A stretch of DNA of 36,369 bases from a virus: positions 1-36,369 of IMG/VR virus record IMGVR_UViG_3300045125_000108; one strand, 5' to 3'. The notes under the pieces were generated by a model. It was not told the DNA's origin, ran no database searches, and was given only the letters and a program-made list of their open reading frames with translations. Made by a program: the position numbers and the translations under genes. Shown here in pieces: positions 15,671-33,652 of the stretch. Position 1 is the stretch's first letter. Each line of letters opens with the position of its first letter.

Positions 15671-17605
15671 CTATGCTGTAATATCTACAAGTTCACAATT
15701 CCCATCAGATGTACAGGCTAGTGTTTGAGTACCGCTTGTACCATCTTCTGTTTCATAAAAAGATAAGTCTTCCCAACGAATTGAAGACGGCATCTTGGCA
15801 AGAAGCTCTAAATATTCTGTTTCAGTAACCTCTTGATACGGAGCCTGTTTATACGAATGGTCTGAATGTGGTAAAAATGAAATACCTGATACTTCATCAA
15901 AGTGCTTATACACCCACGCACCAACTTCCATCCATTCATCTTCTTTAACTGAAACTGTAATTGAAGGTTTATGTTCGCACCATGAACGCTGATAAACAAG
16001 CCATGTATTTAAATGATCAATAGCGGTAAGATGATCTCTTGTAATTGCTCCTTCTGGTGCTTTTACTGGAAATGAAAATACATAAGTATCATTTGGCTTC
16101 ATAAAATCATCTTCTACAGGAATCCCAACTTCTTTTAAAAATGTAGATAAAGGATCTTTCTTGTCTCCACGTACTGTACGAATATAATAATCTGAATGCC
16201 ATGCATGCATACCTGAAGAAACTCCAACTAATTGAGAAACTGTACCTGAAGGCTTTACACAAGTAATAGCGGCAGATTCATTAATACCAATCTTGACTGC
16301 TTCTTCTTTATTAGTTTCTCTAGCATATTCACGAAGGCTTTCTAGTGTTTCTGCTAGCTTTTTTAAGATCTTGTTTTCCTGAAAAAATTTGTTTCCAAAC
16401 TGTCCAGTTAAAGATACTCCTAATAGACGTTCTTCTTCTGTATTATCCTTCCAAATTTTACGAAGGTATTTAAAGTCTGTAAGAGTAGATTGCCAAGTTC
16501 CGAGAATAGTTGCTAGTCTTACTTTTTCCGCCACAGTCTCTGGGGTATCTGATTCTCGAATGACAACTTCGGATAGATTACAGAACTGATAAGGTCTAAG
16601 GATAATTTCTGAGCATGGGTTAGTTCCATAATGGATTTCTTCGCTTCTACGACCCCATCGAGATGCCTGCTTTTGTGCTGCTGCAACATTGTATATGCCA
16701 CGCTCACCTGATTTTGAATCATATAAATTCTTCCATTCAGCAATAAACTGTTCCATTTCTGGTTTACGAGAATATGCTACTGAGTTATTTGATAAAGCAC
16801 GTTGTGAATTTTGTTCCCACCAGTTTCCTGATTTTGCCGCTGCCATTTCAATATCATTAATATTAGATAATGAAATCATTGCAGAACGACGTACACCACC
16901 AACAACTACAACTTCGCCAATCTTACACATTATATCGTGAGCCTCAATAGGTTTCAACTGACGACCTGCTGCAGCTTTAAGCTTTGCAATTGTAAAATCA
17001 AAAAGGTTAATTAAAGGTTGTGGTCCTGAAGAACGACCACCCATTGTCTTAAGACGTGCTCCTGCTGGACGAAGTTTAGATACATCAATAGAAGGAATCT
17101 GTCCAGCCCAAAGCATGGCAAGAAGTTCACGGTATGCTTTTGCCCAACCAGTCTTTGAATCTTCAACTACAATAATTGTTGTTGACTTCTCAAATGATTC
17201 TGGGACGGGAGGAAGCTTATTAACGTACTTGTATTCAACAGAAAACCCTACACCAGTTCCACACATAAGAATATACATTGTTTCATCAAATGAACGTGGT
17301 GAATCTACTGGAACAAATGAGCAGTTGTATCCTGCTACATGGTCTCTTGAAAGAGCAGCACCTGCAGTCATAACTGCTCTCATAGATGGCATAACATTAC
17401 GTTCATATACCGCATTCTTTAAATCTTCTATAAGTTTAGAATTTGGCTTATATTCATAATTCACGAAAAGGTGATCTAACATAAATGAAAAATAACGATC
17501 TACTGTTTCGCCCCATTTTTCACGACGGTTTTCTTCTGGTATCCATCTTGCATATCGTGATAATGCAATAAAGTTTTCATACGGGTTTTCAATATTTTTT
17601 GACAT
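15671..17605 (-). CDS. rtpR: adenosylcobalamin-dependent (class II) ribonucleoside-triphosphate reductase, monomeric
   Basis: Reduces ribonucleoside triphosphates to deoxy forms with cobalamin as radical source, feeding phage DNA synthesis without oxygen dependence. 644 residues, somewhat shorter than typical family members. Seen: the first redox cysteine in AGYNCSFVPVDSPRSFD, a substrate loop CGTGVGFSVEY, the active-site Asn-Cys-Glu in GTNPCSEIILRP, PSGTVSQLVGVSSGMH, and the C-terminal cysteine pair in ACTSDGNCEL that re-reduces the active site. Intact, in the best-read part of the window. A purine-rich ribosome site (GAAGGAG) lies a little far (about 12 nt) from ATG 17605. The host or environment must supply B12. 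Confidence 0.93.
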   Translation of the reverse strand: MSKNIENPYENFIALSRYARWIPEENRREKWGETVDRYFSFMLDHLFVNYEYKPNSKLIEDLKNAVYERNVMPSMRAVMTAGAALSRDHVAGYNCSFVPVDSPRSFDETMYILMCGTGVGFSVEYKYVNKLPPVPESFEKSTTIIVVEDSKTGWAKAYRELLAMLWAGQIPSIDVSKLRPAGARLKTMGGRSSGPQPLINLFDFTIAKLKAAAGRQLKPIEAHDIMCKIGEVVVVGGVRRSAMISLSNINDIEMAAAKSGNWWEQNSQRALSNNSVAYSRKPEMEQFIAEWKNLYDSKSGERGIYNVAAAQKQASRWGRRSEEIHYGTNPCSEIILRPYQFCNLSEVVIRESDTPETVAEKVRLATILGTWQSTLTDFKYLRKIWKDNTEEERLLGVSLTGQFGNKFFQENKILKKLAETLESLREYARETNKEEAVKIGINESAAITCVKPSGTVSQLVGVSSGMHAWHSDYYIRTVRGDKKDPLSTFLKEVGIPVEDDFMKPNDTYVFSFPVKAPEGAITRDHLTAIDHLNTWLVYQRSWCEHKPSITVSVKEDEWMEVGAWVYKHFDEVSGISFLPHSDHSYKQAPYQEVTETEYLELLAKMPSSIRWEDLSFYETEDGTSGTQTLACTSDGNCELVDITA

Positions 17606-23275: not shown

Positions 23276-23298
23276 TTGTCAGACCCCTATGATAGTCT
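23276..23298 (+). promoter_or_regulatory. short-spaced promoter, copy 1
   Basis: TTGTCA, an 11-nt spacer and a weak -10 (TAGTCT), followed by GAAAGG and ATG 23333. First of 15 similar elements. Confidence 0.6.
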
Positions 23299-23332
23299 TA
23301 AGACATAAGGTTAAATAAAGAAAGGTAGTCAA

Positions 23333-23548
23333 ATGATTACACTAGATAAAAACGAAATAAAGTCCGCTAAGTATGGACACCTCAATCTAACACAGCGTAT
23401 CGCTATCGCTGCTCAAATGGTAGTAGATGGTCAGCCTGTCTCTTTCCGTGGGGCTAGTGCTGATACCTATGCTAAGGTAATGCAAGAGGCTAACCGCATT
23501 AAGCATGAATTAGAGTTTCCACAATGCCCATGCGGAGAGTGTGACTAA
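23333..23548 (+). CDS. hypothetical protein with C-terminal cysteine cluster
   Basis: 71 residues, intact. The first half (MITLDKNEIKSAKYGHLNLT) reads as a helix-strand mix, and the end, EFPQCPCGECD, holds three closely spaced cysteines that could bind a metal. Function unknown. It is a single-gene unit: its own short-spaced promoter in front and another promoter 35 bp after its stop. Confidence 0.7.
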   Translation: MITLDKNEIKSAKYGHLNLTQRIAIAAQMVVDGQPVSFRGASADTYAKVMQEANRIKHELEFPQCPCGECD

Positions 23549-23582
23549 CACCACAGCGACACGCTAGGCTAAATGCCTCAAT

Positions 23583-23605
23583 TTGTCAGACCCCTATGCT
23601 ACACT
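23583..23605 (+). promoter_or_regulatory. short-spaced promoter, copy 2
   Basis: TTGTCA, 11 nt (GACCCCTATGC), TACACT, then AAACGAAAGG before ATG 23640. It drives the five-gene coupled string 23640-24256. Confidence 0.7.
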
Positions 23606-23639
23606 TACAACATAACAACAAAACGAAAGGTCAGAATAA

Positions 23640-23744
23640 ATGACACTAGAAGAATACAAGGCGCTAGTAACAGCACAGCGCAAGGCTAGCCTAGAAAAGG
23701 CTATCGCTACCCTATCCGCTACTACCTCTAAGGAGAATAAGTAA
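23640..23744 (+). CDS. tiny hypothetical protein
   Basis: 34 residues (MTLEEYKALVTAQRKASLEK, then a Thr/Ser-rich end), one amphipathic helix. First gene of a coupled string: its TAA shares a base with the next ATG (TAATG). The GAAAGG leader sits 8-9 nt upstream. No family recognised. Confidence 0.6.
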   Translation: MTLEEYKALVTAQRKASLEKAIATLSATTSKENK

Positions 23745-23915
23745 TGACTAAATGGGATACTATCCAATCAGATGTAAGCTGATGCTTACCGCCATTGGGA
23801 TGATGTAGTAGATGTAGAAGAAGATGAGGATGATTTCTTCGGATTTGCTAAGGCTATACAGATTGACCACTTAACAGATGAACAACTAGATGAGATTGGA
23901 AAAATGTTCGAATGA
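23744..23915 (+). CDS. acidic hypothetical protein, one frameshift
   Basis: About 56 residues. It reads MTKWDTIQSDV, then after a break near 23780 DAYRHWDDVVDVEEDEDDFF and LTDEQLDEIGKMFE. Very acidic, with an EDEDD run; possibly a DNA-mimic or protein-binding peptide (inference). Coupled to both neighbours by TAATG and ATGA overlaps. Confidence 0.6.
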
Positions 23916-24052
23916 CATTAGAATTAAATGACTATGGATTAGAGTTCGATACCTATGTGTGCTACATAGCGTTATCATGGCAGGTTATTGTTCCCGCTCT
24001 AATTGTTTTTATTGGATACAAGATTTATAAAAGAACTAAGAGAGTGTTTTAA
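23912..24052 (+). CDS. small membrane protein
   Basis: 46 residues. The N-terminal acidic part (MTLELNDYGLEFDTY) is followed by one membrane helix (SWQVIVPALIVFIGYKIY) and a basic tail (KRTKRVF), so the N-terminus should face out. Overlaps the previous stop by 4 bases. Confidence 0.6.
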   Translation: MTLELNDYGLEFDTYVCYIALSWQVIVPALIVFIGYKIYKRTKRVF

Positions 24053-24168
24053 TGAATAGACTACTTACTAGCCTTGTACAGTTAGCCCTCATAGTACCCG
24101 CCCTATACATGGGGCGCATTGTGTGGCATGACTTTAAGCAAGAGATGAGGGAACTATTCAATGGCTAA
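24052..24168 (+). CDS. small membrane protein
   Basis: 38 residues with one N-terminal hydrophobic helix (LVQLALIVPALYMG) and a charged C-terminus (WHDFKQEMRELFNG). TAATG coupling to the gene before and an 8-base overlap with the one after. Two adjacent small membrane proteins could act as a pair, but no function is evident. Confidence 0.6.
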   Translation: MNRLLTSLVQLALIVPALYMGRIVWHDFKQEMRELFNG

Positions 24169-24256
24169 CCCTAACGGGTTTTATAAATGCCCTAAATGTG
24201 ATCGCCTTAATGCGGGCGCTTATACTAAATGCGTATGTGAGCAAGATAACAAATAA
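24161..24256 (+). CDS. tiny zinc-ribbon protein
   Basis: 31 residues: FYKCPKCDRL and TKCVCEQD give a C-x-x-C / C-x-C set able to bind one zinc. Last gene of the 23.6 kb string; the DnaA-box element follows 5 bp after its stop. Confidence 0.6.
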   Translation: MANPNGFYKCPKCDRLNAGAYTKCVCEQDNK

Positions 24257-24260
24257 ATAA

Positions 24261-24390
24261 CGGCGTGTCGGCTTGACAAAGTCGAGCTGGCCCGCAAGTA
24301 CTTGCGGGAGTTATCCACAGGCTTACGGGGTTATCCACAACCCCCTGGAAATGTGAGGTTTATCACAAAAAATAATTTTGCGACACGCCC
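24261..24390. repeat. DnaA-box intergenic element, copy 1
   Basis: 130 bp bounded by inverted ends GGCGTGTCG and CGACACGCC. Inside, in order: a near-palindrome around TTGACAAAGTC, the perfect 18-bp palindrome CCCGCAAGTACTTGCGGG (24291-24308), and two perfect DnaA boxes TTATCCACA (24311-24319 and 24331-24339, 20 bp apart) separated by a TTACGG core. A promoter follows 16 bp on. Confidence 0.8.
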
Positions 24391-24405
24391 GAGAAATCCC
24401 CCAAT

Positions 24406-24428
24406 TTGTCAGTACCCCATGCTACACT
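24406..24428 (+). promoter_or_regulatory. short-spaced promoter, copy 3
   Basis: TTGTCA, 11 nt, TACACT; then GAAAGGTGG before ATG 24465. It drives the four-gene string to 25090. Confidence 0.7.
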
Positions 24429-24464
24429 TCCAGTATAAAGATTAAATAAAGAAAGGTGGTCACC

Positions 24465-24644
24465 ATGACTACACTAACACATACACACACTCCACACATG
24501 GAGAGCGTATCTACTACATACGGATTTGGAGTAGATGTCGAATACACTTTCTGCGAAACTTGTGAGCAGAACATAGATAGAGTTTATTTCTATGATGACT
24601 TTGACCGCTTACCATTTTACACAGATTGGAGTTTAACTAAATGA
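24465..24644 (+). CDS. small protein with CxxC motif
   Basis: 59 residues from ATG 24465, chosen because GAAAGGTGG is 6-9 nt upstream; a GTG at 24456 lies inside the ribosome site. His/Thr-rich start (LTHTHTPHME), then FCETCEQNIDRVYFYDDFD. The CETC pair plus histidines might hold a metal. Its stop overlaps the next ATG by 4 bases. Confidence 0.6.
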   Translation: MTTLTHTHTPHMESVSTTYGFGVDVEYTFCETCEQNIDRVYFYDDFDRLPFYTDWSLTK

Positions 24645-24802
24645 AAACTAATTTTGAGATTTCGCAAGAAATTAACACTCTTGCCAAAAAACACTATGGC
24701 GACATGGATTTGGCTTTTGCTTGGGGTTGTGCTCAGGCTTTGCTAACTACAAAACAATTAGATTTAATTCTTGGAATACTAAAAGAAAAGGAAACTAACT
24801 AA
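24641..24802 (+). CDS. hypothetical helical protein
   Basis: 53 residues, intact (MKTNFEISQEINTLAKKHYG, then AWGCAQALLTTKQLDLILG). Predicted all-helical and soluble. Coupled to both neighbours by ATGA and TAATG. Similar short helical proteins are common in actinophage early regions; role unknown. Confidence 0.6.
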   Translation: MKTNFEISQEINTLAKKHYGDMDLAFAWGCAQALLTTKQLDLILGILKEKETN

Positions 24803-24894
24803 TGAATAAATGTTCATCTTGTGGTCAAGATACCACGCAATTTATTACCGATGACGGAGAATACTATTATCCAATTTGTGGGGAGTGTTACTAA
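24802..24894 (+). CDS. tiny zinc-ribbon protein
   Basis: 30 residues with two C-x-x-C knuckles (NKCSSCGQD and YPICGECY), a complete minimal zinc ribbon. Coupled by TAATG at both ends. Several such proteins in this region suggest a set of small adaptor or host-takeover factors (inference). Confidence 0.65.
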   Translation: MNKCSSCGQDTTQFITDDGEYYYPICGECY

Positions 24895-25090
24895 TGAACG
24901 ATTTCTATGATGACTTGTTAAATGATTGCTACGGAGAAATTAAACTTGGCAATTTGGTTTTTCTCCCGCCGAAATTATTAAAGCTTTAGACCCTATTGCG
25001 TATGATCAAGGTTTATTAGACTTTGAGGACATGATGATGGAAAACATGGAAGAAGAAGAAATGGAAATGTTAGAAAAAGAAATTATCTAA
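24894..25090 (+). CDS. acidic hypothetical protein, one frameshift
   Basis: About 65 residues. It starts MNDFYDDLLNDCYGEIK; a break in a T-run near 24962 leads into AEIIKALDPIAYDQGLL and a Met/Glu-rich end (MMMENMEEEEMEMLEKEII). Strongly acidic. Last gene of its string, 5 bp before the second DnaA-box element. Confidence 0.55.
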
Positions 25091-25095
25091 CTCAA

Positions 25096-25195
25096 CGGCG
25101 TGTCGACTTGACAAAAGTTGATGCGCCCGCAAAAGAGAGGGGTTATCCACAGGTTACGGGCAGTTATCCACACCCCTGGAATTTGCGACACGCCC
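25096..25195. repeat. DnaA-box intergenic element, copy 2
   Basis: 100 bp with the same inverted ends as copy 1 (CGGCGTGTCG at 25096, CGACACGCCC ending 25195), the CTTGACAAAA block, CCCGCAAAAG, and two perfect TTATCCACA boxes (25143-25151 and 25164-25172, 21 bp apart) around a GGTTACGGGC core. It is shorter than copy 1 because the 18-bp palindrome is reduced to its left half. Confidence 0.8.
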
Positions 25196-25266
25196 GAGAT
25201 TTTGTGATTTTTATCACATGGCTTGAGCGTCTCATTATTTGGAATTACTGGCTAGTAATTAGATAA

Positions 25267-25289
25267 ATGTCAGTAGGGTCTGGTAAAAT
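25267..25289 (+). promoter_or_regulatory. short-spaced promoter, copy 4
   Basis: ATGTCA, 11 nt, TAAAAT, then AAACGAAAGGCGG before ATG 25322. The ATG inside this promoter is not a gene start. Confidence 0.65.
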
Positions 25290-25321
25290 ACCATTATCAA
25301 CAAAACGAAAGGCGGACTCAA

Positions 25322-25521
25322 ATGTCAGCAAATCTTTACACTATCGAAAATCTCCTTGTGGAAAAACTTATAAATCAAAAACACTAACAGGCGAAATAGT
25401 TTCTGCCGAGCCACACCCTCAAGCAATTTGGTATGATGGCGCAGAGGCTTATCGTGTAGAAGTTAGAAATCAAAATGGTGGATACACTTATCGCTCAGTA
25501 GCCGTAAAGGTATCTGACTAA
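25322..25521 (+). CDS. small beta-strand protein, one frameshift
   Basis: About 66 residues. Starts MSANLYTIENLLV, breaks near 25360, then GKTYKSKTLTGEIVSAEPHP and YRVEVRNQNGGYTYRSVAV. The pattern V-G-x-T-Y...T-G-x-I...H-P...R...V is shared with the protein at 27904, so the two are paralogues. A small beta-barrel (SH3-like) is likely from the alternating strands. Single-gene unit. Confidence 0.6.
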
Positions 25522-25522
25522 T

Positions 25523-25545
25523 TTGTCAGACCCTTACGCTATAAT
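25523..25545 (+). promoter_or_regulatory. short-spaced promoter, copy 5
   Basis: TTGTCA, 11 nt, perfect TATAAT, then AAGAAAGGAAAA before ATG 25570. It begins 1 bp after the previous stop. Confidence 0.75.
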
Positions 25546-25569
25546 TTAACAACTAAGAAAGGAAAACTA

Positions 25570-25735
25570 ATGTTAAAGATAATCGACAAAACCGATTTCT
25601 ATGAAATCGCAGACGAACAACACTTTTGCTGTGATGAAAGTCAGTTTAAGTATTACTGTGAACGAGCACCTAGAGTTTATGGGTTGCTACTTTTGCCAAT
25701 TTGACTATGATAAAGATTGCGAGGAACAACACTAA
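25570..25735 (+). CDS. small cysteine-rich protein, one frameshift
   Basis: About 54 residues. MLKIIDKTDFYEIADEQHFC, then cysteines in CCDESQFKYYCE, and after a break near 25680 GCYFCQFDYDKDCEEQH. Six cysteines and two histidines suggest one or two zinc sites. Coupled by TAATG to the next gene. Confidence 0.55.
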
Positions 25736-25890
25736 TGGGATTTATTGAAATCTTTCGCCTTGATGAAAATGGCGCAGGTTGGGTGGATTTATCAGAAGCC
25801 ACCCCTGATGAAATGTTTAATCTTGAATTAGGCTTACTTAATGAGGGAGCCTTATTCTCAACACCGAAGCCGACTAATTGTCGGTGGTAG
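25735..25890 (+). CDS. hypothetical small protein
   Basis: 51 residues, intact (MGFIEIFRLDENGAGWVDLS, then TPDEMFNLELGLLNEGA). Its last eight codons run through the next promoter (TTGTCGG), so promoter and coding sequence are fused here. No family recognised. Confidence 0.55.
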   Translation: MGFIEIFRLDENGAGWVDLSEATPDEMFNLELGLLNEGALFSTPKPTNCRW

Positions 25891-25900
25891 GTGCTATACT
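25878..25900 (+). promoter_or_regulatory. short-spaced promoter, copy 6
   Basis: TTGTCG, 11 nt, TATACT, then AAACGAAAGGAAAA before ATG 25931. A small hairpin (CCGAC / GTCGG) covers the TTGTCG element. Confidence 0.7.
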
Positions 25901-25930
25901 TACAACAACAAAACGAAAGGAAAACTAAAA

Positions 25931-26094
25931 ATGAAAACACTTAAAAAATAGAAACTTACTCTTTTGATTGCGACTCTTGCGGTGGTAAGGGTTGGTTATT
26001 TTGGGGAGATAATGAAAACTTTGATGTTGAGGCTTGCGATTGTAACCCTGAACAATTAGATGTTCCACAAAATAAGTTAGGTCATGGTGAATAA
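25931..26094 (+). CDS. small zinc-ribbon protein, one frameshift
   Basis: About 54 residues. MKTLKK is followed by a break in an A-run, then IETYSFDCDSCGGKGWLFWG and EACDCNPEQL. The CDSCGGKG knuckle resembles a DnaJ-type zinc repeat, though only one and a half repeats are present. TAATG coupling to the next gene. Confidence 0.6.
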
Positions 26095-26300
26095 TGTATA
26101 AAATAACTTGCGCTTATGATGAAAACGCTCCACACTGCACTCAGCAATTCTCAGATGAATTAGACGCTCACAAAAGTTTTGCTAATTATGTAGATTGGGG
26201 ATTTGCTGACGAATACTCAACTGTAAATCTTTATACACCTAGCGGAAAATGCTACACAAAAATTTTCTATCGTGAAGGTAGAAGGGTGGTAGAAAAATAA
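26094..26300 (+). CDS. hypothetical protein
   Basis: 68 residues, intact: MYKITCAYDENAPHCTQQFS, VDWGFADEYSTVNLYTPSG and KIFYREGRRVVEK. Predicted alpha/beta with a C-terminal beta hairpin. No family recognised. Shares bases with both neighbours. Confidence 0.6.
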   Translation: MYKITCAYDENAPHCTQQFSDELDAHKSFANYVDWGFADEYSTVNLYTPSGKCYTKIFYREGRRVVEK

Positions 26301-26488
26301 TGATGACTCGTAAAGATTACATAGCAACTGCGGAAATTCTAAAGTATGTTTCCGATAAAACTCACCCAGCCGTTTTTTCTAAAATGGTTGTAGATTTTGC
26401 GGAGATGTTCGCAAAAGATAATCCACGATTTGACGCTAATAGATTTTATTCTGCGTCAAATTACAAAATACCAACTTTCAGCAACTAA
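26300..26488 (+). CDS. hypothetical helical protein of actinophage type
   Basis: 62 residues. The ATG overlaps the previous stop by one base (TAATG). MTRKDYIATAEILKYVSDKT and FAEMFAKDNPRFDANRFYSA belong to a short helical protein that I have often seen in actinobacterial phages and plasmids, function unknown. The second Met may be the start actually used. Confidence 0.65.
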   Translation: MMTRKDYIATAEILKYVSDKTHPAVFSKMVVDFAEMFAKDNPRFDANRFYSASNYKIPTFSN

Positions 26489-26505
26489 AATAAAAAGGAC
26501 AGAAA

Positions 26506-26632
26506 ATGAAATTACCAAATAAAGAAAGAATAAAAAGAGTTTTGGAATTGCGCAGAGTCAAATGCCGCAACTCCAATAAAATCTAAAAAAATTTATTCAC
26601 GAAAACGAAAACATAAAAATAAAACTGGTTGA
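26506..26632 (+). CDS. small basic protein, one frameshift
   Basis: About 41 residues. MKLPNKERIKRV, then after a break near 26542 AESNAATPIKSKK and YSRKRKHKNKTG. Very basic C-terminus, so a nucleic-acid-binding peptide is possible. AAAAAGGA precedes ATG 26506. Its stop lies inside the first palindrome of the next DnaA-box element. Confidence 0.5.
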
Positions 26633-26737
26633 AATTTCAACCAGCCCGCAACACTGCGGGGTTTTCCACAGGGTTACGGGCAGCTGTGGATAACCCTGGA
26701 TTTTTGTGATAAATCTCACAAATGTTGCGACACGCCG
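26625..26737. repeat. DnaA-box intergenic element, copy 3 (inverted box)
   Basis: Starts with the perfect 20-bp palindrome CTGGTTGAAATTTCAACCAG, then a CCCGCA/TGCGGG hairpin, a degenerate box TTTTCCACA (26662-26670) and an inverted perfect box TGTGGATAA (26685-26693), and ends with CGACACGCCG. Here CAGGGTTA and TAACCCTG also pair, so the boxes can form a cruciform. The left GGCGTGTCG end is missing. Confidence 0.75.
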
Positions 26738-26752
26738 ATACTAAAATTGAAA

Positions 26753-26775
26753 TTGTCAGTAGCCTAGTGTAAAAT
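26753..26775 (+). promoter_or_regulatory. short-spaced promoter, copy 7
   Basis: TTGTCA, 11 nt, TAAAAT, then AACGAAAGGAAAA before ATG 26806. Confidence 0.7.
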
Positions 26776-26805
26776 ACCGATATCAAACAAACGAAAGGAA
26801 AATAA

Positions 26806-27057
26806 ATGTTAGACACAACAAATTGGGCAAGTTATCCGTTCACCGTAAATGGAGTAGATTTTGTATCTAAAGTAGATAAAGATAGTAGTATGTATAAGCA
26901 AGTATCTAGAGTACCTAATGATATATTTATATCTATGAATCACAGGCGTATTCTAGAACTTATCGGTAATCCAACCGAGTTTTCTTATGATGAACTATCT
27001 ATTGAGTTAGATAGAATAAATGAAGGCGCAAGTCAAGCCCTACTCTGCTTAGCGTAA
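26806..27057 (+). CDS. hypothetical protein
   Basis: 83 residues, intact. MLDTTNWASYPFTVNGVDFV, then helices in SMNHRRILELIGNPTEFSYD and IELDRINEGASQALLCLA. Alpha/beta; no recognised family. Single-gene unit between two short-spaced promoters; leader AACGAAAGGAAAATAA before ATG fixes the start. Confidence 0.65.
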   Translation: MLDTTNWASYPFTVNGVDFVSKVDKDSSMYKQVSRVPNDIFISMNHRRILELIGNPTEFSYDELSIELDRINEGASQALLCLA

Positions 27058-27059
27058 AA

Positions 27060-27091
27060 ATGTCGGTGGGTAGGTGTATAATCTACCCACC
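27060..27091 (+). promoter_or_regulatory. short-spaced promoter, copy 8, with the -10 in a hairpin loop
   Basis: ATGTCG, 11 nt, perfect TATAAT (27077-27082). The inverted repeat GGTGGGTAG / CTACCCACC (27065-27091) places the -10 in its 9-nt loop. This could be an operator, or a terminator for the upstream gene fused to the promoter. Confidence 0.7.
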
Positions 27092-27112
27092 ACTAAACGA
27101 AAAGGAAATCAA

Positions 27113-27391
27113 ATGCTATCAACCGCAACCGCTATTATCGAAGCCGTAACAGATACCATAATGGAAGATGAAATTATGGATTTAGCAAGATTTATTGCTC
27201 ATAAGAGAAATGAACTTTCTGATGATGATTTTGCTAAAGCAATTTATCTTTATTCAGGTATGCTATCGTCTAATACTGCTGATAAAGTAACTAAGATTTT
27301 ACTTTCACCAATGGAAGTCCAACAACTAATGATGTCTATTGATGAAATGGAACAACTAAGAAATGAAATACTAGGAGAGGAAAATAACTAA
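27113..27391 (+). CDS. hypothetical helical protein
   Basis: 92 residues from ATG 27113, set by AAACGAAAAGGAAA just upstream; an in-frame GTG at 27074 lies within the promoter. MLSTATAIIEAVTDTIMEDE, RFIAHKRNELSDDDFAKAI and LSPMEVQQLMMSIDEMEQLR are strongly helical. No known domain. TAATG coupling to the next gene. Confidence 0.6.
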   Translation: MLSTATAIIEAVTDTIMEDEIMDLARFIAHKRNELSDDDFAKAIYLYSGMLSSNTADKVTKILLSPMEVQQLMMSIDEMEQLRNEILGEENN

Positions 27392-27676
27392 TGGGAACTA
27401 ATCTTGCTTATGACCTTAGCGTCAGATGAACTAAACTTAGATTTAGAAACTGCTATCGGATACCACTTACAGGGTAATCACTATCCGCCCGTCCCGTTGT
27501 CAATGGTGCAACCATGCATAGATGCTATTGATGCTTACTATGAAGATGCCTATGATCGTGAGATTGAAATGCCCGAAGGCGTATCATACAAAGGAAGGGA
27601 TACTGCCCCTGCTTAGGCTATTGTAGAACAGCACCACTTAGATGCATGGCTACCACAGGAGGACTACGATGAGTAA
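27391..27676 (+). CDS. hypothetical acidic protein with an in-frame TAG
   Basis: About 94 residues. MGTNLAYDLSV, a frame break near 27420, then DELNLDLETAIGYHLQGNHY and CIDAIDAYYEDAYDREIEMP. The frame meets TAG at 27614-27616 after GRDTAPA but stays open for 19 more codons (AIVEQHHLDAWLPQEDYDE) to a TAA that overlaps the next gene in the usual way. Either the TAG is a misread codon or the last 19 residues come from readthrough. The tight spacing to the next ATG supports the longer form. Confidence 0.5.
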
Positions 27677-27809
27677 TCTTTATTCTATTTTAGCTGAGAT
27701 GCACCCAAATGGAGATTTTACAGAAAATGACCTATGGGAGGCTATTGCTGAGTCTGAGGGATTAGATGTAAACGAGATCATGGATCAGGATCTAACAGAA
27801 TACTTGTGA
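27669..27809 (+). CDS. small acidic helical protein
   Basis: 46 residues (MSNLYSILAEMHPNGDFTEN, then LWEAIAESEGLDVNEIMDQD), intact, with AGGAGG 6-7 nt upstream, one of the few canonical ribosome sites here. No family recognised. Confidence 0.6.
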   Translation: MSNLYSILAEMHPNGDFTENDLWEAIAESEGLDVNEIMDQDLTEYL

Positions 27810-27856
27810 GATAAATCACACAATAACTTTCTCAAATAATGAGATTGGGGAGGAAA

Positions 27857-27879
27857 TTGTCAGACCTACCCTGTATAAT
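27857..27879 (+). promoter_or_regulatory. short-spaced promoter, copy 9
   Basis: TTGTCA, 11 nt, perfect TATAAT, then ATCGAAAGGAAAC before ATG 27904. Confidence 0.75.
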
Positions 27880-27903
27880 AATTGACCTATCGAAAGGAAA
27901 CAA

Positions 27904-28056
27904 ATGAGCACAACGCTATCAGTAGGACAAACCTACACAACTACACAAAGCAAAATCACTGGGACTATCAAGGAAATCCATAAGCACCCGTCAGGCGTAA
28001 ATCGTCTATTGCTTGATGTAAATGGAACAGAACGCTGGACAAGCGTATCTAACTAA
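27904..28056 (+). CDS. small beta-strand protein, paralogue of the 25322 gene
   Basis: 50 residues, intact: MSTTLSVGQTYTTTQSKITG, then IKEIHKHPSGVNRLLLDVNG and ERWTSVSN. It shares the V-G-x-T-Y / T-G-x-I / H-P / R-x-x-x-x-V framework with the protein at 25322. A small beta-barrel is likely. Single-gene unit with its own promoter. Confidence 0.65.
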   Translation: MSTTLSVGQTYTTTQSKITGTIKEIHKHPSGVNRLLLDVNGTERWTSVSN

Positions 28057-28063
28057 TCAAATA

Positions 28064-28101
28064 GCAGGGCTCACCGAAATGTCGGTGGGCTCTGCTACAA
28101 T
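28064..28101 (+). promoter_or_regulatory. short-spaced promoter, copy 10, in a long hairpin
   Basis: ATGTCG (28079-28084), 11 nt, TACAAT. The 14-bp near-perfect inverted repeat GCAGGGCTCACCGA / TCGGTGGGCTCTGC (28064-28095) includes the -35-like element and reaches the -10. It could end the upstream transcript while starting the next. Confidence 0.65.
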
Positions 28102-28130
28102 TACCAACTCAACCAAACGAAAGGAAAAAA

Positions 28131-28554
28131 ATGGCTAGAAATGGCAAAGCGATAAATGTAAAAATCGCTACAACTAAAGTAATCAAGGCACTAGAGGGTG
28201 CGTTGGCTAAGTTAGATAACGAGTATGCTTCACAAGAAGCAAATCAGGCTAAAGTACGATAAAGCAGTAAAGGCTTGGAATAAAGAGGTTGGCTAAGTTA
28301 GCACTTGCTCAAATCGCTAAGGCAGAAAACTCTATCAGCAAACAAACGCTACAATGGCGAAATAAATGTTGATTTTAATTTACCTGCTGGAACTATTACT
28401 CTACCTGCTGAACCTAAAAGGATTTTCTACAAATCCACGAGTGGCAGTATCGTGAGCAAAAGAGGAAATTGAGAACGCAATTCGTATTCTCAAAATGACC
28501 GATGAGGAAGTAGTCAATACTTCTACTTACAACGCTATCGCTAGATACTTGTAA
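28131..28554 (+). CDS. hypothetical protein of actinophage type, frameshifted
   Basis: About 140 residues. MARNGKAINVKIATTKVIKA, LEGALAKLDNEYASQEANQA, then YDKAVKAWNKEV and LALAQIAKAEN (coiled coil), a strand-rich INVDFNLPAGTITLPAEPKR, and EEIENAIRILKMTDEEVVNT. I recognise this arrangement from actinophage early genes, without a named function. Breaks near 28255, 28295, 28340 and 28430 fit read errors in A-runs. AAACGAAAGGAAAA precedes the ATG. Confidence 0.6.
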
Positions 28555-28561
28555 TAATAGC

Positions 28562-28597
28562 GGGGGCTAGACAAAATCTAGCCCCCAATGCTATAAT
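28562..28597 (+). promoter_or_regulatory. terminator hairpin fused to a promoter
   Basis: A perfect 10-bp stem GGGGGCTAGA / TCTAGCCCCC (28562-28586) is followed by TGCTATAAT. Here the TTGTCA element is absent; a TAGACA inside the stem lies 18 nt from TATAAT, giving a more normal sigma70 spacing. Confidence 0.65.
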
Positions 28598-28626
28598 TCT
28601 TATTCCTACTAACAGAAAGTAATAAA

Positions 28627-28884
28627 ATGAAAAATCGTTTTCGTGTTGAAATCTATGATGCTAATAAATTAAATGATGTAACTATTTATTCAGAACAAGG
28701 TGTTGATAAAGAATACTTAACTGAAATTGTATTCTCTAACTTGTCAAAGTTTTCTGGAAATGTAAAAGCATACGTGTATGATGAATTAAAGAAGACTAAA
28801 ACTGTTGCGTTATTTTTACCTGAAGCAACTGTAATGAAATATAAACCAAAACAATTAACTAGGATTGAACTAGGATTGATTTAA
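28627..28884 (+). CDS. hypothetical protein
   Basis: 85 residues, intact: MKNRFRVEIYDANKLNDVTI, EQGVDKEYLTEIVFSNLSKF and LFLPEATVMKYKPKQLTRIE. Alternating strands and helices suggest a small ferredoxin-like fold. No family recognised. Only a weak ribosome site (GAAAG) is present. Confidence 0.6.
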   Translation: MKNRFRVEIYDANKLNDVTIYSEQGVDKEYLTEIVFSNLSKFSGNVKAYVYDELKKTKTVALFLPEATVMKYKPKQLTRIELGLI

Positions 28885-28890
28885 AAGCTT

Positions 28891-28925
28891 GGGGCGGGAT
28901 CCTGATTCCCTTCTAGTCCCGCCCC
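28891..28925 (+). terminator. GC-rich terminator-like hairpin
   Basis: A perfect 9-bp stem GGGGCGGGA / TCCCGCCCC with a 17-nt loop directly after the 28627 gene. No U-run follows, so termination would need help. Confidence 0.55.
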
Positions 28926-28935
28926 ATCCTGTTGG

Positions 28936-29006
28936 GCCCGCAATAGCTAAGGGGTTATCCACAGGGTTACGACAGTTATCCACAACCCCTGAAATTTTGT
29001 GAGATT
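28936..29006. repeat. DnaA-box intergenic element, copy 4
   Basis: GCCCGCAATAGCTAAGG, then perfect DnaA boxes TTATCCACA at 28955-28963 and 28976-28984 (21 bp apart) around a GGTTACG core, then CCCCTGAAATTTTGTGA. It lacks the GGCGTGTCG/CGACACGCC ends. The first 17 bases recur exactly at 30245. Confidence 0.8.
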
Positions 29007-29018
29007 AATCACATCAGA

Positions 29019-29042
29019 CAATTCGGACATTTAACTAGTTAA
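29019..29042. promoter_or_regulatory. third operator-like repeat plus palindrome
   Basis: CAATTCGGACATT is the reverse complement of the 23191/23243 repeat. It runs into the perfect palindrome TTAACTAGTTAA (29031-29042), 8 bp before the next promoter. Both could bind regulators of the DUF932 gene. Confidence 0.5.
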
Positions 29043-29050
29043 TCTTTACA

Positions 29051-29073
29051 ATGTCAGACCCCTATGTTATACT
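29051..29073 (+). promoter_or_regulatory. short-spaced promoter, copy 11
   Basis: ATGTCA, 11 nt (GACCCCTATGT), TATACT, then AATCGAAAGGAAAA before ATG 29105. Confidence 0.75.
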
Positions 29074-29104
29074 CAGTTAATCAACCAATCGAAAGGAAAA
29101 AAAT

Positions 29105-30117
29105 ATGGCTCATAATCTTGAAGTCGAAAATGGCGAAGTTGCTTTTGCATTGCGTGGCGCACCTGCATGGCATAATCTCGCAAACCGCATCTTTAATCAG
29201 GATGAGGATGTTACAACTCAAATGATGTTAGATGAGGCAAAATTATCTAACTGGGATGTTCGCTTGTCTCCCTATCACAAATCACATTGACGAGTCTTGG
29301 AATGATGTTTCAAATTCGTCTCTAGTTGTTCGCACAAATCCATTTAATGGCGGAACTGATGTTCTTGCAACTGTTGGAAAGCGTTACAAGCCTGTGCAGA
29401 ATGAAGAATTGTTTGCATTTGCTGATGCTATTCATGACGCTAACGCTGATTGCCGTTGGGAGTCTGCTGGCTCATCTGCGTAGTGGTAAAGTTGTGTTTG
29501 GAACTGTAGATATTCCTCGCACAATGGTATTAGACCCACAAGGTGCTAATGACCAAACTAAACTTTATTTAATTGTTTGGACATCTCATGACGGGTCTGT
29601 TGCTGTTCAGGCAGCCGTTACCCCTGTTCGTGTAGTTTGCCAAAACACTTTGAACCTTGCAATGCGTAATGCTAAGCAATCATTCAAAATTCGTCACACT
29701 CAATCTGTTGAGGGTCGCATCCAAGTTGCTCGTGAGACTCTTGGGCTTGCTCTTGGATACTTTGATGAATTTGAGAAAGAAGCGCAGGGCTTATTTAATC
29801 AAGCAATTACTGATGCTCAATTCTCAGAACTTGATCAAAACAATTTATCCTAAGCCTGATAAGGATGCGTCAAAAGTTGCAATCACTAAGTGGGAAAATA
29901 AAGTTGTTTTGCTTGATGATTTGTATCATAACTCACCAACTAACGCTAATGTTAAGGGCACTAAGTGGGGTGCGTTTAATGCACTTACTGAACGCCTAGA
30001 TTATTATCCGTTCAGGTCGTGGCAATTCTGAAACACTAATGGCGGGTGCAAGTGGTTTTGACCCTAATCTTAACCGCAGAAAAAAATAAAATTCTTAAGT
30101 TGGTTAAATCCTTCTAA
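29105..30117 (+). CDS. DUF932 / phage-plasmid-like protein (TIGR03299), frameshifted
   Basis: About 335 residues. Marks of the family: an N-terminal FALRGAPAWHNLANRIF, SSLVVRTNPFNGGTDVLATV with GKRYKPVQNEELFAFADAI, then LYLIVWTSHDGSVAVQAAVT, PVRVVCQNTLNLAMRNAKQ, IRHTQSVEGRIQVARETLGL, and KWGAFNALTERLDYY followed by a short C-terminus (NKILKLVKSF). These proteins are widespread in phages and conjugative plasmids, and their exact function is unsettled. Frames break near 29275, 29480, 29850, 30010 and 30085. Largest gene of the rightward region, with its own promoter and nearby operator-like sites. Confidence 0.8.
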
Positions 30118-30158
30118 AGAAAAAATCCTGAGCAAGATTTAAAACTGCTCACCATATT

Positions 30159-30233
30159 GGTCCGTTAGCTCAGTTGGTTAGAGCGCTACCCTGTCACGGT
30201 AGAGGTCGACGGGTTCAAGTCCGTTATGGATCG
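30159..30233 (+). tRNA. tRNA-Asp (anticodon GTC)
   Basis: A full cloverleaf: acceptor GGTCCGT pairing ATGGATC with two G-U pairs, D arm TAGCTCAGTTGGTTAGAGC, anticodon stem CTACC/GGTAG with loop CTGTCAC, and T arm GACGGGTTCAAGTCCGTT. Anticodon GTC reads aspartate codons. CCA is not encoded. Confidence 0.93.
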
Positions 30234-30244
30234 CACTAATGAAT

Positions 30245-30300
30245 GCCCGCAATAGCTAAGGAGCCAAATTGATGTGTTACGGATCACATATAAAACCCCT
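30245..30300. repeat. decayed copy of the DnaA-box element
   Basis: It begins with the same 17 bases as copy 4 (GCCCGCAATAGCTAAGG), keeps a GTTACGG core and an ACCCCTTGAAATTTG end, but both TTATCCACA boxes are lost or badly altered. A promoter follows at once, as with the intact copies. Confidence 0.6.
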
Positions 30301-30306
30301 TGAAAT

Positions 30307-30330
30307 TTGTCAGTGCCTGGGGTGTATAAT
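30307..30330 (+). promoter_or_regulatory. short-spaced promoter, copy 12
   Basis: TTGTCA, 12 nt, perfect TATAAT, and only 7 nt to ATG 30338, so a leaderless transcript is possible. The extra spacer base may be a read error in a G-run. Confidence 0.6.
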
Positions 30331-30337
30331 TCTCGTC

Positions 30338-30427
30338 ATGATAACGAAATGGAATAAGTATACATATGATGAACACAGGACGACTGTGACTGCATTAATT
30401 GAGGTTACTACATTTAGAGGGGACTGA
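30338..30427 (+). CDS. short protein, probably broken by a read error
   Basis: Readable frame of 29 codons (MITKWNKYTYDEHRTTVTAL, then EVTTFRGD). After one break near 30415 a second frame continues as TEAKILTYLACNESPYTLLS, which looks coding, up to the next promoter. The true gene may be about 45 residues. No family recognised. Confidence 0.4.
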   Translation: MITKWNKYTYDEHRTTVTALIEVTTFRGD

Positions 30428-30476
30428 GGCAAAGATTCTTACATACCTCGCATGTAATGAATCGCCATATACATTA

Positions 30477-30499
30477 TTGTCAGTGGTCGATGCTACAAT
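30477..30499 (+). promoter_or_regulatory. short-spaced promoter, copy 13
   Basis: TTGTCA, 11 nt, TACAAT, then AACGAAAGGGA before ATG 30524. An open frame runs through it but is not the gene start. Confidence 0.7.
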
Positions 30500-30523
30500 T
30501 ACACCAACAAACGAAAGGGAACA

Positions 30524-30909
30524 AATGACAACAACAATGGAATCAACAGAGATGCAGGACCGCATCAAACAACTCGAGGAGCACATCTCTAAAGTAACTC
30601 AGCGTTCATATACTGAATCTGCAGAACGTAATCGCATGCGTAATGAGATGCAGGAATGGACATTAGAGCAATTAGATGAAGATTCAATTACAGAATCACA
30701 GGCTGAAGAAATTGCTAGCATCTGTGAAGCTTTGAACTTGCTAAAGAGTTTGAGGTTGAAGTAACAGTTATGTAATTCAGCAACAGTTATTGCTCGTAAT
30801 GAAGAGCAAGCACAGAACGCAATCTATGATAGTTGACTTTGATACAGTCGATTACAATACAGATTCAATTAGATATATGTCTTCTAGCATTGATAGAGTG
30901 GAAGTCTAA
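30524..30909 (+). CDS. coiled-coil hypothetical protein, frameshifted
   Basis: About 128 residues. MTTTMESTEMQDRIKQLEEH and RSYTESAERNRMRNEMQEWT form a coiled coil. Then QLDEDSITESQAEEIASICE and, after breaks near 30735, 30775 and 30830, ATVIARNEEQAQNAIYD, VDFDTVDYNTDSIRYMSS and SIDRVEV. I recognise the arrangement from actinophages, with no assigned function. Its TAA overlaps the next ATG (TAATG). Confidence 0.6.
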
Positions 30910-31098
30910 TGTACTTTGAATTCACCGCTCCTGATAGGCTATCCTTGGAGATGGCCTATTGGGATGCACAAATCACTGGGACTAGACCCACAAGCAATGC
31001 CACCATTGACATTCAACATTGGAACTGGTAGTATTGAGAAAGTAAGTCGGATTCGAGATAAGTTTAATCTAGTTGAAACTTATGTCATCAGACTATGA
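30909..31098 (+). CDS. hypothetical protein, one frameshift
   Basis: About 62 residues: MYFEFTAPDRLSLEMAYWDA, then after a break near 30985 QAMPPLTFNIGTGSIEKVSR and IRDKFNLVETYVIRL. Predicted alpha/beta. Coupled by TAATG at its start and followed closely by the next start. No family recognised. Confidence 0.55.
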
Positions 31099-31126
31099 AC
31101 CGACAGGATATCACAAGGAGTTAAGA

Positions 31127-31284
31127 ATGGATTACCAAGATGGATTTCGAAGACGGTGTTAAAGTTTGCTCGTGAGGTTATTATTGCTAACATTAGGTTA
31201 TGGGCTGAATCGTCAGATGATGGTCAGGTATATGATGACATCGCAGATCAAATTGAATTCGGAAAGGTAGACTATGACCTCTGA
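31127..31284 (+). CDS. hypothetical acidic protein, frameshifted
   Basis: About 51 residues: MDYQDGF, EDGVK, then FAREVIIANIRLWAESSDDG and QVYDDIADQIEFGKVDYDL. ATG 31127 has AAGGAG 6 nt upstream. Breaks near 31148 and 31165. It overlaps the DUF7455-like gene by about 10 bases. Confidence 0.5.
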
Positions 31285-31475
31285 GGATCTAACTACGATG
31301 GATTGGCATGTGATCAATGTAATTCAGCTCAAGCTATGTATTTAGTTAAACTAGTTAGATGGGGAGCTTTACTTTTGTGGGCACCATTTATAATGAAAAT
31401 AAGGAGGCCCTTGACAAGGTCGCCTATGAAATTGTAGAATTAAACAAGGTCGAGGAAAGCACCAAGACCAACTAG
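31274..31475 (+). CDS. DUF7455-like zinc-ribbon protein, frameshifted
   Basis: About 66 residues. LACDQCNSAQAMYLVKL followed by YFCGHHYNENKEALDKVAYE is the C-x-x-C...C-G-H-H zinc ribbon of DUF7455, a family that is, to my knowledge, confined largely to Actinobacteria and their phages. It is the best single marker of the host group here. Breaks near 31290, 31352 and 31370. Function unknown; a small regulatory or adaptor role is likely. Confidence 0.7.
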
Positions 31476-31495
31476 AAAGTGAGCGGATATAAGAA

Positions 31496-31918
31496 ATGGG
31501 AGACAGAGCAAATTTTGGTTTCGTTCAACCAAGTGGAAACACAATTGTACTCTACGGACACTGGGCTGGGCATCAGATATGTTAGAGTAACTTAGCGGAG
31601 GCTGTTGCTAAGGCTGCAGTCCACGTTGGAATGACCCATCATATGCAACACGCATTGCTATTAGCAACATGATTGGCGATGTCATGGGGTATGGAAACTG
31701 GCTGGGGCCTGCAGGTAAATGAAATCTCAGGACAATGAGCACAAGATTCCTATAGTCGACTGGGCTAGCAATATACTTTTAGTCTTCATGAAGAGGATGA
31801 TCACATTATACACGAATCTAATAAAGTTACGTGGCATGAAGAATGAAGCAATCTTCACAATGGACCTCTCAGAGCATTCTGTGAGAAGTATGCCCTGGAA
31901 GAAATGCTAGTCAACTAA
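31496..31918 (+). CDS. conserved actinophage hypothetical protein, frameshifted
   Basis: About 135 residues: MGDRANFGFVQPSGNTIVLY, then GHWAGHQML, DPSYATRIAISNMIGDVMG, TGWGLQVNEIS, DNEHKIPIVDWAS and a FTMDLSE end. I know the GDRANFGF...LYGHWAGH...GWGLQVNE...HKIPIVDW set as a conserved actinophage protein without a named function. Its beta-rich profile with conserved Trp/His residues suggests ligand binding. At least five breaks; stop at 31916-31918. Confidence 0.65.
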
Positions 31919-31924
31919 TTTTGG

Positions 31925-32092
31925 TATAATAATGATCTAGGTCAAGCTGGACCTTATCATTAATTTAAGGTGCGGCTAATTAGGGGAATCCCTCAAGTCG
32001 CTAAGTAAAGCAGCGTTTACTTAATTCCTTTCGTTCTGCTAGCAGCCTTACTATCTTAAAGATCCCTCAGCTGCAAGCTGGGATTTTTTATT
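31925..32092 (+). ncRNA. candidate structured small RNA
   Basis: About 165 bp without a gene, framed by an extended -10 (TGGTATAAT, -10 at 31925-31930) and an intrinsic terminator (32062-32089). In between: a hairpin AATGAT..AGGTC / GACCT..ATCATT (31931-31961), then a two-part stem GGAAT / ATTCC around AAGTAAA / TTTACTT (31985-32028), and a CTGCTAGCAG palindrome. The first hairpin may instead terminate the upstream gene. No match to a riboswitch class that I know. Confidence 0.4.
32062..32089 (+). terminator. rho-independent terminator
   Basis: Stem ATCCC(TC)AGCT / AGCTGGGAT with loop GCA and a two-base bulge, then TTTTTT. Ends the 31.9 kb transcript. Confidence 0.75.
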
Positions 32093-32160
32093 GCCCGCAA
32101 AAGACAAGAGGGTAGCATATGATTGTTTACGACTGTCAATATATTTTCCCTGAAATTTCA
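32092..32160. repeat. decayed copy of the DnaA-box element
   Basis: GCCCGCAAAAGACAAGAGGG matches the start of copy 2 (GCCCGCAAAAGAGAGGGG), a TTTACGAC core and a CCCTGAAATTTCAC end remain, but no good TTATCCACA. Next to it lies the next promoter. An open frame over this stretch (32119-32304) is rejected as a gene. Confidence 0.5.
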
Positions 32161-32210
32161 CAATATGAGACAAGCTTGTCAGATCCATGTGATGCACATC
32201 ATATAGACAA

Positions 32211-32234
32211 TTGTCGGTGGTGCAATTATATAAT
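32211..32234 (+). promoter_or_regulatory. short-spaced promoter, copy 14
   Basis: TTGTCG, 12 nt, TATAAT, then ATCGAAAGGAAAA before ATG 32258. Confidence 0.7.
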
Positions 32235-32257
32235 AGGAATCTATCGAAAGGAAAATT

Positions 32258-32991
32258 ATGCCAAATTGGTGTTACAATGGATTAACTATAGAGGGAAATC
32301 CTGAATCTGTAAAGAAGTTAATGGAACAAATGAATAAGCCATTTAAGAAAAAGCATGACAACTGGAATATGGAAACAGGTAAAATGGAAATTACTCAAAC
32401 TCTATATCTAAATCCAATATTTGCATTTCATCAATATCTATAATCATTTAGAGGACAGGTATTACTGATGAGCAATATATTCAACAACCCGACCATTCTC
32501 TTCCATATTGCAGAAGCATTGCAATTTAAGGGAAATCATTGGTATGACTTTAATAGTTCGTGAATGGGGAACTAAATGGGATGTTGCTGTATCAGATGAT
32601 AATAAGTATCCTGATACAACTGATGGAAGATACTCCTAATGGTGAGAATCATGTAGTTCATTATAATTTTCAAACTGCTTGGTCCCCACCGTTTCCTGCT
32701 ATATCTAAACTATCTAAACAATATCCTAATCTACTCTTTACTTTATCATATGAGGAAGAAACAGGTTGGGGTGGGGAATGTGAGTTCCTACGTGGAGAAC
32801 AAATATCAGATTCATCATATGGTTGGATGTGTCGTGAATGCGAACATACAGAAGAAGATACTCCATATTGTGAAGAATGTGAATTTGATATGTGTCCGTC
32901 ATGTGGCTACGGAGAGCCAATGGACGAAGACCGTGCAAAATGTCAGACCCATGGTGTAGAATCATCTCCTACAGAAAAGGCGGAAGCATGA
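32258..32991 (+). CDS. YubB/DUF1281-like protein with C-terminal zinc fingers, frameshifted
   Basis: About 240 residues. It starts MPNWCYNGLTIEGNPESVKK, the hallmark of the YubB ferredoxin-like family of phages and plasmids, followed by the other conserved parts: HWYDFNSREWGTKWD, VVHYNFQTAWSPPFPAISKL and LLFTLSYEEETGWGGECEF. An extra C-terminal region has CRECEHTEEDTPYCEECE and DMCPSCGYGEPMDEDRAKC, two likely zinc fingers. Role of the family unknown. Breaks near 32430-32470, 32560 and 32625. Start and leader agree with the promoter pattern. Confidence 0.75.
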
Positions 32992-33054
32992 CAGTTTGAT
33001 GAATTAATGAGAAAAATCTATGATGAGCATTTCTCTCATTTTGATTTCAGATAA
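32988..33054 (+). CDS. tiny protein, frameshifted
   Basis: ATG 32988 overlaps the previous stop (ATGA). After one break the frame reads DELMRKIYDEHFSHFDFR and stops. The reading may go on past a misread stop (YERWRLDYVN), so the true length is unclear. Confidence 0.35.
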
Positions 33055-33117
33055 TATGAACGGTGGAGATTAGATTACGTAAATTGCATAATGCAATGAT
33101 TTAATGTATGAATATGT

Positions 33118-33396
33118 GTGATTATATGGAGCCATTATTTAGATATAAATGAAATGAAACAAATCTATGCTGATAATTATGATGACCAAGTTTCTGATTA
33201 TATCCTCGGAGAGGCTGTAGCAGAATTTAATGGTCGACTAGATAATTATGCAGATGAATTATTAAATGACATTATTGATAATATTAAAGAGGATATATTA
33301 GATAATGTTAGTTATGAACAAAAGGATATTGATGTTATGCAGGCTAGTATTAGTTTGGCTAAACATTATATTCGCCACTTTCAAATGATGAATTAA
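33118..33396 (+). CDS. hypothetical helical protein
   Basis: 92 codons open. A solid coding part runs from EMKQIYADNYDDQVSDYILG through NYADELLNDIIDNIKEDILD to SISLAKHYIRHFQMMN. Strongly helical and acidic. The start is uncertain (GTG 33118, or an internal ATG before KQIYAD). No family recognised. The end overlaps another coding frame by a few bases. Confidence 0.5.
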   Translation: MIIWSHYLDINEMKQIYADNYDDQVSDYILGEAVAEFNGRLDNYADELLNDIIDNIKEDILDNVSYEQKDIDVMQASISLAKHYIRHFQMMN

Positions 33397-33642
33397 GACG
33401 GGACTTGAAATGGCTAATTCATTCTTTGACGGGTTATGGGATTGAGGTTACTTTGACTAATCAATTAATTGAATATATGCAGGAAGTCATTTAATTAATT
33501 GGTGATGAACAAAGATTATATTATGCATCTTTGATGAAATGGAAAAGGTTGGATATAAACTCTAAGGCATTTAACGAATTAGATTTAAATATAACTAATA
33601 TAGGACAGATTATTGCTACCCGCCATTTATTGTCAGTGGCTA
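33387..33642 (+). CDS. hypothetical protein with an in-frame stop
   Basis: A coding-like frame DELRRDLKWLIHSLTGYGIE, TLTNQLIEYMQEVI, a TAA at 33492-33494, then in the same frame LIGDEQRLYYASLMKWKRLD and LDLNITNIGQIIATRHL. Read as one gene, the TAA is a misread codon inside an AT-rich run (TTTAATTAATTGG). It probably ends by 33642, where the next promoter begins. No family recognised. Confidence 0.35.
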
Positions 33643-33652
33643 GTGATATACT
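33630..33652 (+). promoter_or_regulatory. short-spaced promoter, copy 15
   Basis: TTGTCA, 11 nt, TATACT, then GAGGAGAAAAGGGA before ATG 33681. The rightmost copy seen. Confidence 0.6.

Follow-up and report, generated by a model that had tools for sequence, protein, structure and literature searches.

In a 36,369-bp virus record from IMG/VR (IMGVR_UViG_3300045125_000108; this whole stretch is referred to below as the window), a gapped element of the form TTGTCA-N11-TATAAT recurs between 23 and 34 kb, which raises the question of what kind of sites these are and which regulators read them. An earlier note on this DNA had listed 15 copies and proposed an unusual sigma factor, a phage activator or a repressor site built onto an extended −10. 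All 15 were found at the coordinates given, on the + strand, and a sixteenth was added at 32940, so that the window holds 16 sites in a single orientation. We consider it probable that they are early promoters of an actinophage which copy a LexA-independent DNA-damage promoter of the host (RecA-NDp) and are hard-wired to the host regulators PafBC and CRP. This reading is based on motif identity, spacing, orientation, conservation and phasing, and on searches of the phage records, which detected neither WYL nor cNMP-binding domains, nor sigma region 2. The sites are as follows.

23276..23298, + strand: RecA-NDp-type promoter, TTGTCA-N11-TAGTCT
23583..23605, + strand: RecA-NDp-type promoter, TTGTCA-N11-TACACT
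24406..24428, + strand: RecA-NDp-type promoter; CRP box centre 47.5 bp upstream of TGTC
25267..25289, + strand: RecA-NDp-type promoter; CRP box centre 57.5 bp upstream
25523..25545, + strand: RecA-NDp-type promoter
25878..25900, + strand: RecA-NDp-type promoter, TTGTCGGTGG variant
26753..26775, + strand: RecA-NDp-type promoter; CRP box centre 41.5 bp upstream, out-of-phase class
27060..27082, + strand: RecA-NDp-type promoter
27857..27879, + strand: RecA-NDp-type promoter; CRP box centre 45.5 bp upstream
28079..28101, + strand: RecA-NDp-type promoter; motif precedes the downstream gene family in 11/11 array phages
29051..29073, + strand: RecA-NDp-type promoter of the DUF932 gene; CRP box centre 46.5 bp upstream; kept in 11/11 array phages
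30307..30330, + strand: RecA-NDp-type promoter, spacer 12
30477..30499, + strand: RecA-NDp-type promoter
32211..32234, + strand: RecA-NDp-type promoter, spacer 12, ahead of a DUF1281_C (Api92-like) gene
32940..32962, + strand: RecA-NDp-type promoter, sixteenth copy (ATGTCAGACCCATGGTGTAGAAT), absent from the earlier list
33630..33652, + strand: RecA-NDp-type promoter

The spacer is 11 nt in 14 of the 16 sites and 12 nt in the remaining two (30307 and 32211), as had been claimed. Between 23 and 34 kb, the pattern [AT]TGTC[AG]-N11-TAnnnT matches 14 times on the + strand and never on the − strand, against a mean of 0.23 and a maximum of 2 in 300 dinucleotide-preserving shuffles. TGTCRG is present in all 16 sites, and its combination with spacers of 11–12 nt occurs 16 times in the array against 0.24 expected. 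Other spacers near 11 nt gave 0–2 matches each, and a spacer of 6 nt gave five, partly a by-product of TATG within the same sites. A motif search in relatives, one of the checks suggested in the earlier note, gave the same picture: the 11-nt class stands out in related contigs containing the block. Within ~60 nt after each window site there is a ribosome-binding site resembling GAAAGG, followed by a start codon. Several window genes at 23–34 kb contain apparent frameshifts that relatives do not have, suggestive of an assembly from error-prone (long) reads; many of the promoter–gene pairs are intact in the relatives.

The pattern coincides with a promoter class that the earlier note did not name. 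The published RecA-NDp consensus is tTGTCRgtg-8 nt-TannnT (PMC5656591), and the window site equals it in letters and spacing (TTGTCR plus 11 nt corresponds to TTGTCRGTG plus 8 nt). PafBC, which is activated by single-stranded DNA (ssDNA), binds the −26 motif together with σA polymerase at promoters that have no −35, where it inserts itself between the promoter and the domain of sigma otherwise expected to contact the −35 (PMC11804915); the motif is also present in other actinobacteria (PMC8223512). The class II ribonucleotide reductase of the window matches at least 599 IMG/VR stretches (hereafter the family), of which 80 were retrieved for comparison. The logo of 147 family sites reads AAWTGTCRGWSS....TGnTATAMT, that is, a −26 element and an extended −10 with no −35, and upstream of the −26 element only an A/T-rich run of three bases is conserved. 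Of the original proposal, this much holds: the sites form a class of promoter in which an extended −10 is joined to a further element at about −24 to −29, and for which sigma alone would not suffice.

The phage sites differ from known RecA-NDp/PafBC promoters, with which they share the consensus, the −26 element replacing the −35 and the σA-type −10, in several respects. They are phage-borne, with 16 in 10 kb; their extended −10 is close to consensus (TGnTATAAT) and a GACC variant of the −26 tail is frequent; they are coupled to CRP and DnaA boxes; and they stand ahead of small early-block genes rather than known DNA-repair genes. In 145 family sites the three bases after TGTCRG are mostly TGG (56) or ACC (41), with TGC (20) and TCC (9) in between and AGG (1) very rare, and the GTG of the consensus is present at only about half to 60% of family sites. 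The occurrence of TGG or its complement ACC, with AGG rare, has the appearance of a base-pair flip and not of free variation, and may reflect reading of shape or of G–C pairs rather than of one strand.

Many near-identical sites in a single genome would also be expected of an array of stoperators or operators, through which a phage repressor would silence the block via TGTCRG, an arrangement known from mycobacteriophages of cluster A. Such stoperators are found inside genes and at a distance from promoters. In the 11 arrays compared, all 137 −26 elements lie in the orientation of the genes and none on the other strand; 134 have a −10 at 11 nt, two at 12 nt and one at 8 nt (136 of 137 thus at 11–12 nt), and none lacks a −10 or stands outside a promoter. 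The −26 element, always accompanied by a −10 and confined to the strand of the genes, is therefore part of a promoter and not a stoperator, and we regard a repressor array, as raised in the earlier note, as very improbable. Furthermore, retention of the promoter ahead of the same gene families reaches 11 of 11 phages, although the flanks differ.

Five of the window sites are preceded by a second element, likewise absent from the earlier note. Perfect palindromes TGTGA-N6-TCACA occur five times in the window (0.02 expected), all within the array and each upstream of a promoter; DnaA boxes are also present at four of these five sites.

24352..24367, no strand: CRP/GlxR palindrome TGTGA-N6-TCACA
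25203..25218, no strand: CRP/GlxR palindrome
26705..26720, no strand: CRP/GlxR palindrome
27805..27820, no strand: CRP/GlxR palindrome
28998..29013, no strand: CRP/GlxR palindrome
24311..24339, + strand: DnaA-box pair TTATCCACA, 20 bp apart
25143..25172, + strand: DnaA-box pair, 21 bp apart
26662..26693, no strand: DnaA-box-like pair, TTTTCCACA (+) and TTATCCACA (−)
28955..28984, + strand: DnaA-box pair, 21 bp apart

The palindrome fits the consensus of GlxR, TGTGANNTANNTCACA, with A/T-rich central bases; GlxR is usually an activator (PMC4254451). Across the family, a perfect palindrome is found at 210 of 744 promoters with a gene (28%). The centres of 249 distinct family boxes lie mostly 26.5, 36.5, 46.5 or 56.5 bp before TGTC, that is, in 10-bp steps, and the 10-bp periodicity is significant (R=0.57, p about 1e−4, 26 gene clusters) when one value is taken per gene family, which limits repeat counting of relatives. 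Within one gene family the distance often shifts by about 10 bp. Apart from the 41.5-bp class, the boxes are thus helically phased relative to the promoter as in CRP class I activation, and activation is predicted. With the start taken 7 nt after the −10, the box centres would fall at about −54.5, −64.5, −74.5 and −84.5, compared with −61.5 and −71.5 in class I promoters of E. coli, and the box is here combined with a −26 promoter in place of a −35 promoter. The boxes at 40.5–42.5 bp are mostly found ahead of one gene family (MLDTTNWASYPF...) and possibly serve another mode, such as repression.

The DnaA-box sequence TTATCCACA is similarly concentrated: 223 of its 296 family copies lie at most 200 bp upstream of promoters, a space making up 12% of the sequence, with relatives counted repeatedly. 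It commonly occurs in pairs, direct at 21 bp (36 cases) or inverted at 23 bp (14 cases), and such pairs often stand ahead of the CRP palindromes. A role of the pairs as RNA hairpins was considered and rejected, as the occurrence of the second box in both orientations fits protein sites on DNA better. Repeated intergenic modules with paired DnaA boxes and a CRP box stand before operon-head promoters at 24259–24390, 25094–25195, 26640–26735 and 28935–29020, two of the four also having the inverted arms GGCGTGTCG...CGACACGCC. LexA-like GAAC-N4-GTTC is not concentrated in the array, with two occurrences in the window, one of them inside the array.

As for the proteins reading these sites, neither a WYL (PafBC-type) nor a cNMP-binding (CRP-type) protein was found in 25 phage records, many of which are fragments, and no Sigma70_r2 protein in 18; control genomes gave matches in these searches, which covered the three domain families. 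The earlier suggestion of an unusual sigma factor finds no backing, the −10 being an ordinary TGnTATAAT and no Sigma70_r2 protein having been found in the 18 records, and a phage-encoded activator of the obvious types is likewise unsupported. As proteins of all three families were not found in the records searched, reading of the sites by the PafBC and CRP of the host appears to be the simplest explanation; it supposes that the host has both proteins and that they act here.

Several observations weigh against this explanation. The CRP boxes at 40.5–42.5 bp (27 of 249) are half a turn out of phase, and window site 26753 falls in this class. About one third of the sites have GACC after TGTCA and not GTG, departing from the weakly conserved, lower-case part of the consensus. 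PafBC, CRP and RecA-NDp promoters of the actual host are assumed from its phylum. PafBC might be dispensable for an extended −10 so close to consensus, and close Streptomyces relatives use other promoters in the same block, which is therefore not dependent on this promoter type in the wider lineage. Finally, most phage proteins are unannotated, so that an unknown phage regulator is possible.

In an alternative, the sites are plain extended −10 promoters for host σA, and TGTCRG is read by an activator or adaptor that the phage encodes and whose family is not known; their resemblance to RecA-NDp then reflects convergence or an origin without dependence on PafBC. The −10 near consensus with its TGn and the lack of known function for most phage proteins are in its favour, and phages often encode transcription adaptors of their own. 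It has to account, however, for complete agreement, in sequence and in spacer, with promoters known from the phylum of the host, and no WYL (25 records) or sigma region 2 protein (18 records) was found, while CRP-type boxes at the same promoters, with no phage CRP, indicate host regulators. We consider this alternative unlikely. Less likely still is that the site is read not by PafBC but by a different regulator of the host, such as ClgR or a second WYL protein. In mycobacteria, ClgR has been reported to bind this promoter motif, and work cited in PMC5656591 reports its recognition of the promoter region recA P1, but later studies assigned the motif to PafBC from in vivo binding (PMC6789036) and structures place PafBC at the −26 element (PMC11804915).

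Under the favoured reading, with host PafBC and CRP, the housekeeping σA polymerase would hold the extended −10, and PafBC activated by ssDNA would dock on the −26 TGTCRG element, replacing the −35 contact. The ssDNA arising from entry and replication of phage DNA would turn on or boost the block of small early genes. At about one promoter in three, CRP/GlxR of the host would bind as a dimer an integral number of helical turns upstream, facing the polymerase and adding a cAMP-dependent activating input, and paired DnaA boxes further upstream may add an input linked to replication, if DnaA plays any role.

The probable nature of the block is suggested by comparison with isolated phages. The two window genes used for this are listed below.

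15671..17605, − strand: class II ribonucleotide reductase, family marker
29104..30090, + strand (approximate extent): DUF932 gene, frameshift-broken, orthologue of a gene in the Jay2Jay terminal repeat

Among isolates, the ribonucleotide reductase matches Streptomyces phages of Stanwilliamsviridae (up to 66% identity). Family contigs of 91–113 kb (relatives G001–G005) share gene order with one of them, Jay2Jay, with identities of 51–58% for portal, 55–61% for capsid, 55–56% for DNA polymerase and 57–60% for terminase (51–61% over all four); the window itself matches Stanwilliamsviridae by ribonucleotide reductase (65%) and DUF932 (55% over 123 amino acids) only. In Jay2Jay, a block of small unidirectional genes forms an exact direct terminal repeat of 11,438 bp, within which lies a DUF932 protein 53% identical to the family protein behind site 29051. 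The terminal repeat of SPO1 carries a cluster of host-takeover genes. The window array resembles both in comprising ~10 kb of small unidirectional genes, and Jay2Jay also in the DUF932 orthologue; in contrast to the window, Jay2Jay has no RecA-NDp array in its block, and the likeness of the window block is one of genes, the repeat itself being seen in Jay2Jay. By analogy, we infer that the array represents the early-gene block in a family of ~100-kb actinophages that are relatives of the Streptomyces Stanwilliamsviridae, and that this block would be the counterpart of their terminal repeat. A tRNA-Asp (GTC) gene also lies within the window block, at 30159–30234.

The window phage is a lake-type virus, probably of actinobacteria. 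WhiB, which has been used as an actinophage marker (PMC10202952; PMC6802176), is encoded in 7 of 25 phage records, and because of this and the synteny of related contigs with Jay2Jay the host is most likely actinobacterial. Metagenome-assembled genomes (MAGs) could not serve to assign the host, the ribonucleotide reductase matching only five MAG contigs, of unrelated phyla. A 110-kb contig in a cyanobacterial MAG (L135 / G025:C31) looks like a misbinned actinophage because it carries the array itself.

Among the matches listed for the strict motif in IMG/VR, 116 of 120 belong to the family by their array genes. The array was absent in the Streptomyces cousins tested; within its first 24 kb, Jay2Jay more often shows the pattern TTGACN-17/18-TAnnnT. 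For the array-less family relatives G001 and G005, a lineage difference was rejected as the cause: their contigs stop ~4 kb beyond the ribonucleotide reductase and do not reach the position where the array would lie. In one of the four other listed matches (L183, 46% GC), three successive RecA-NDp-type promoters, at 5657, 5876 and 6278, stand before small genes; this phage contig gave no matches to the array proteins of the family. Because of these three promoters, the promoter type may extend beyond the array family.

The promoter class has been described before; new, as far as we found, are its deployment in what would be an early regulon of a phage and its phased arrangement with CRP boxes. 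Phage use of PafBC promoters was not described in the titles and abstract openings of literature on PafBC with phage or mycobacteriophage, the coverage of which is incomplete, and no description of a compound PafBC–CRP promoter was found for hosts or phages. For the broader claim, that in the whole aquatic actinophage family the early block is operated as a PafBC regulon, with the ssDNA sensor of the host serving as an infection sensor and with cAMP (through CRP) and possibly DnaA as further inputs, helically in register, to a compound PafBC–CRP promoter, the case seems to us evenly balanced. If true, it would be the first example known to us in which a second activator, in helical phase, joins a −26 (σ-adaptation) promoter, and the 744 promoter variants would offer a natural series for how PafBC and CRP meet polymerase. 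A phage family would then have wired its first genes to the DNA-damage sensor of its host, bringing no factor of its own. The array suggests that the virus times its early genes by two host sensors, one of alarm and one of nutrition, in which case DNA damage and nutrition of the host would set the pace of infection.

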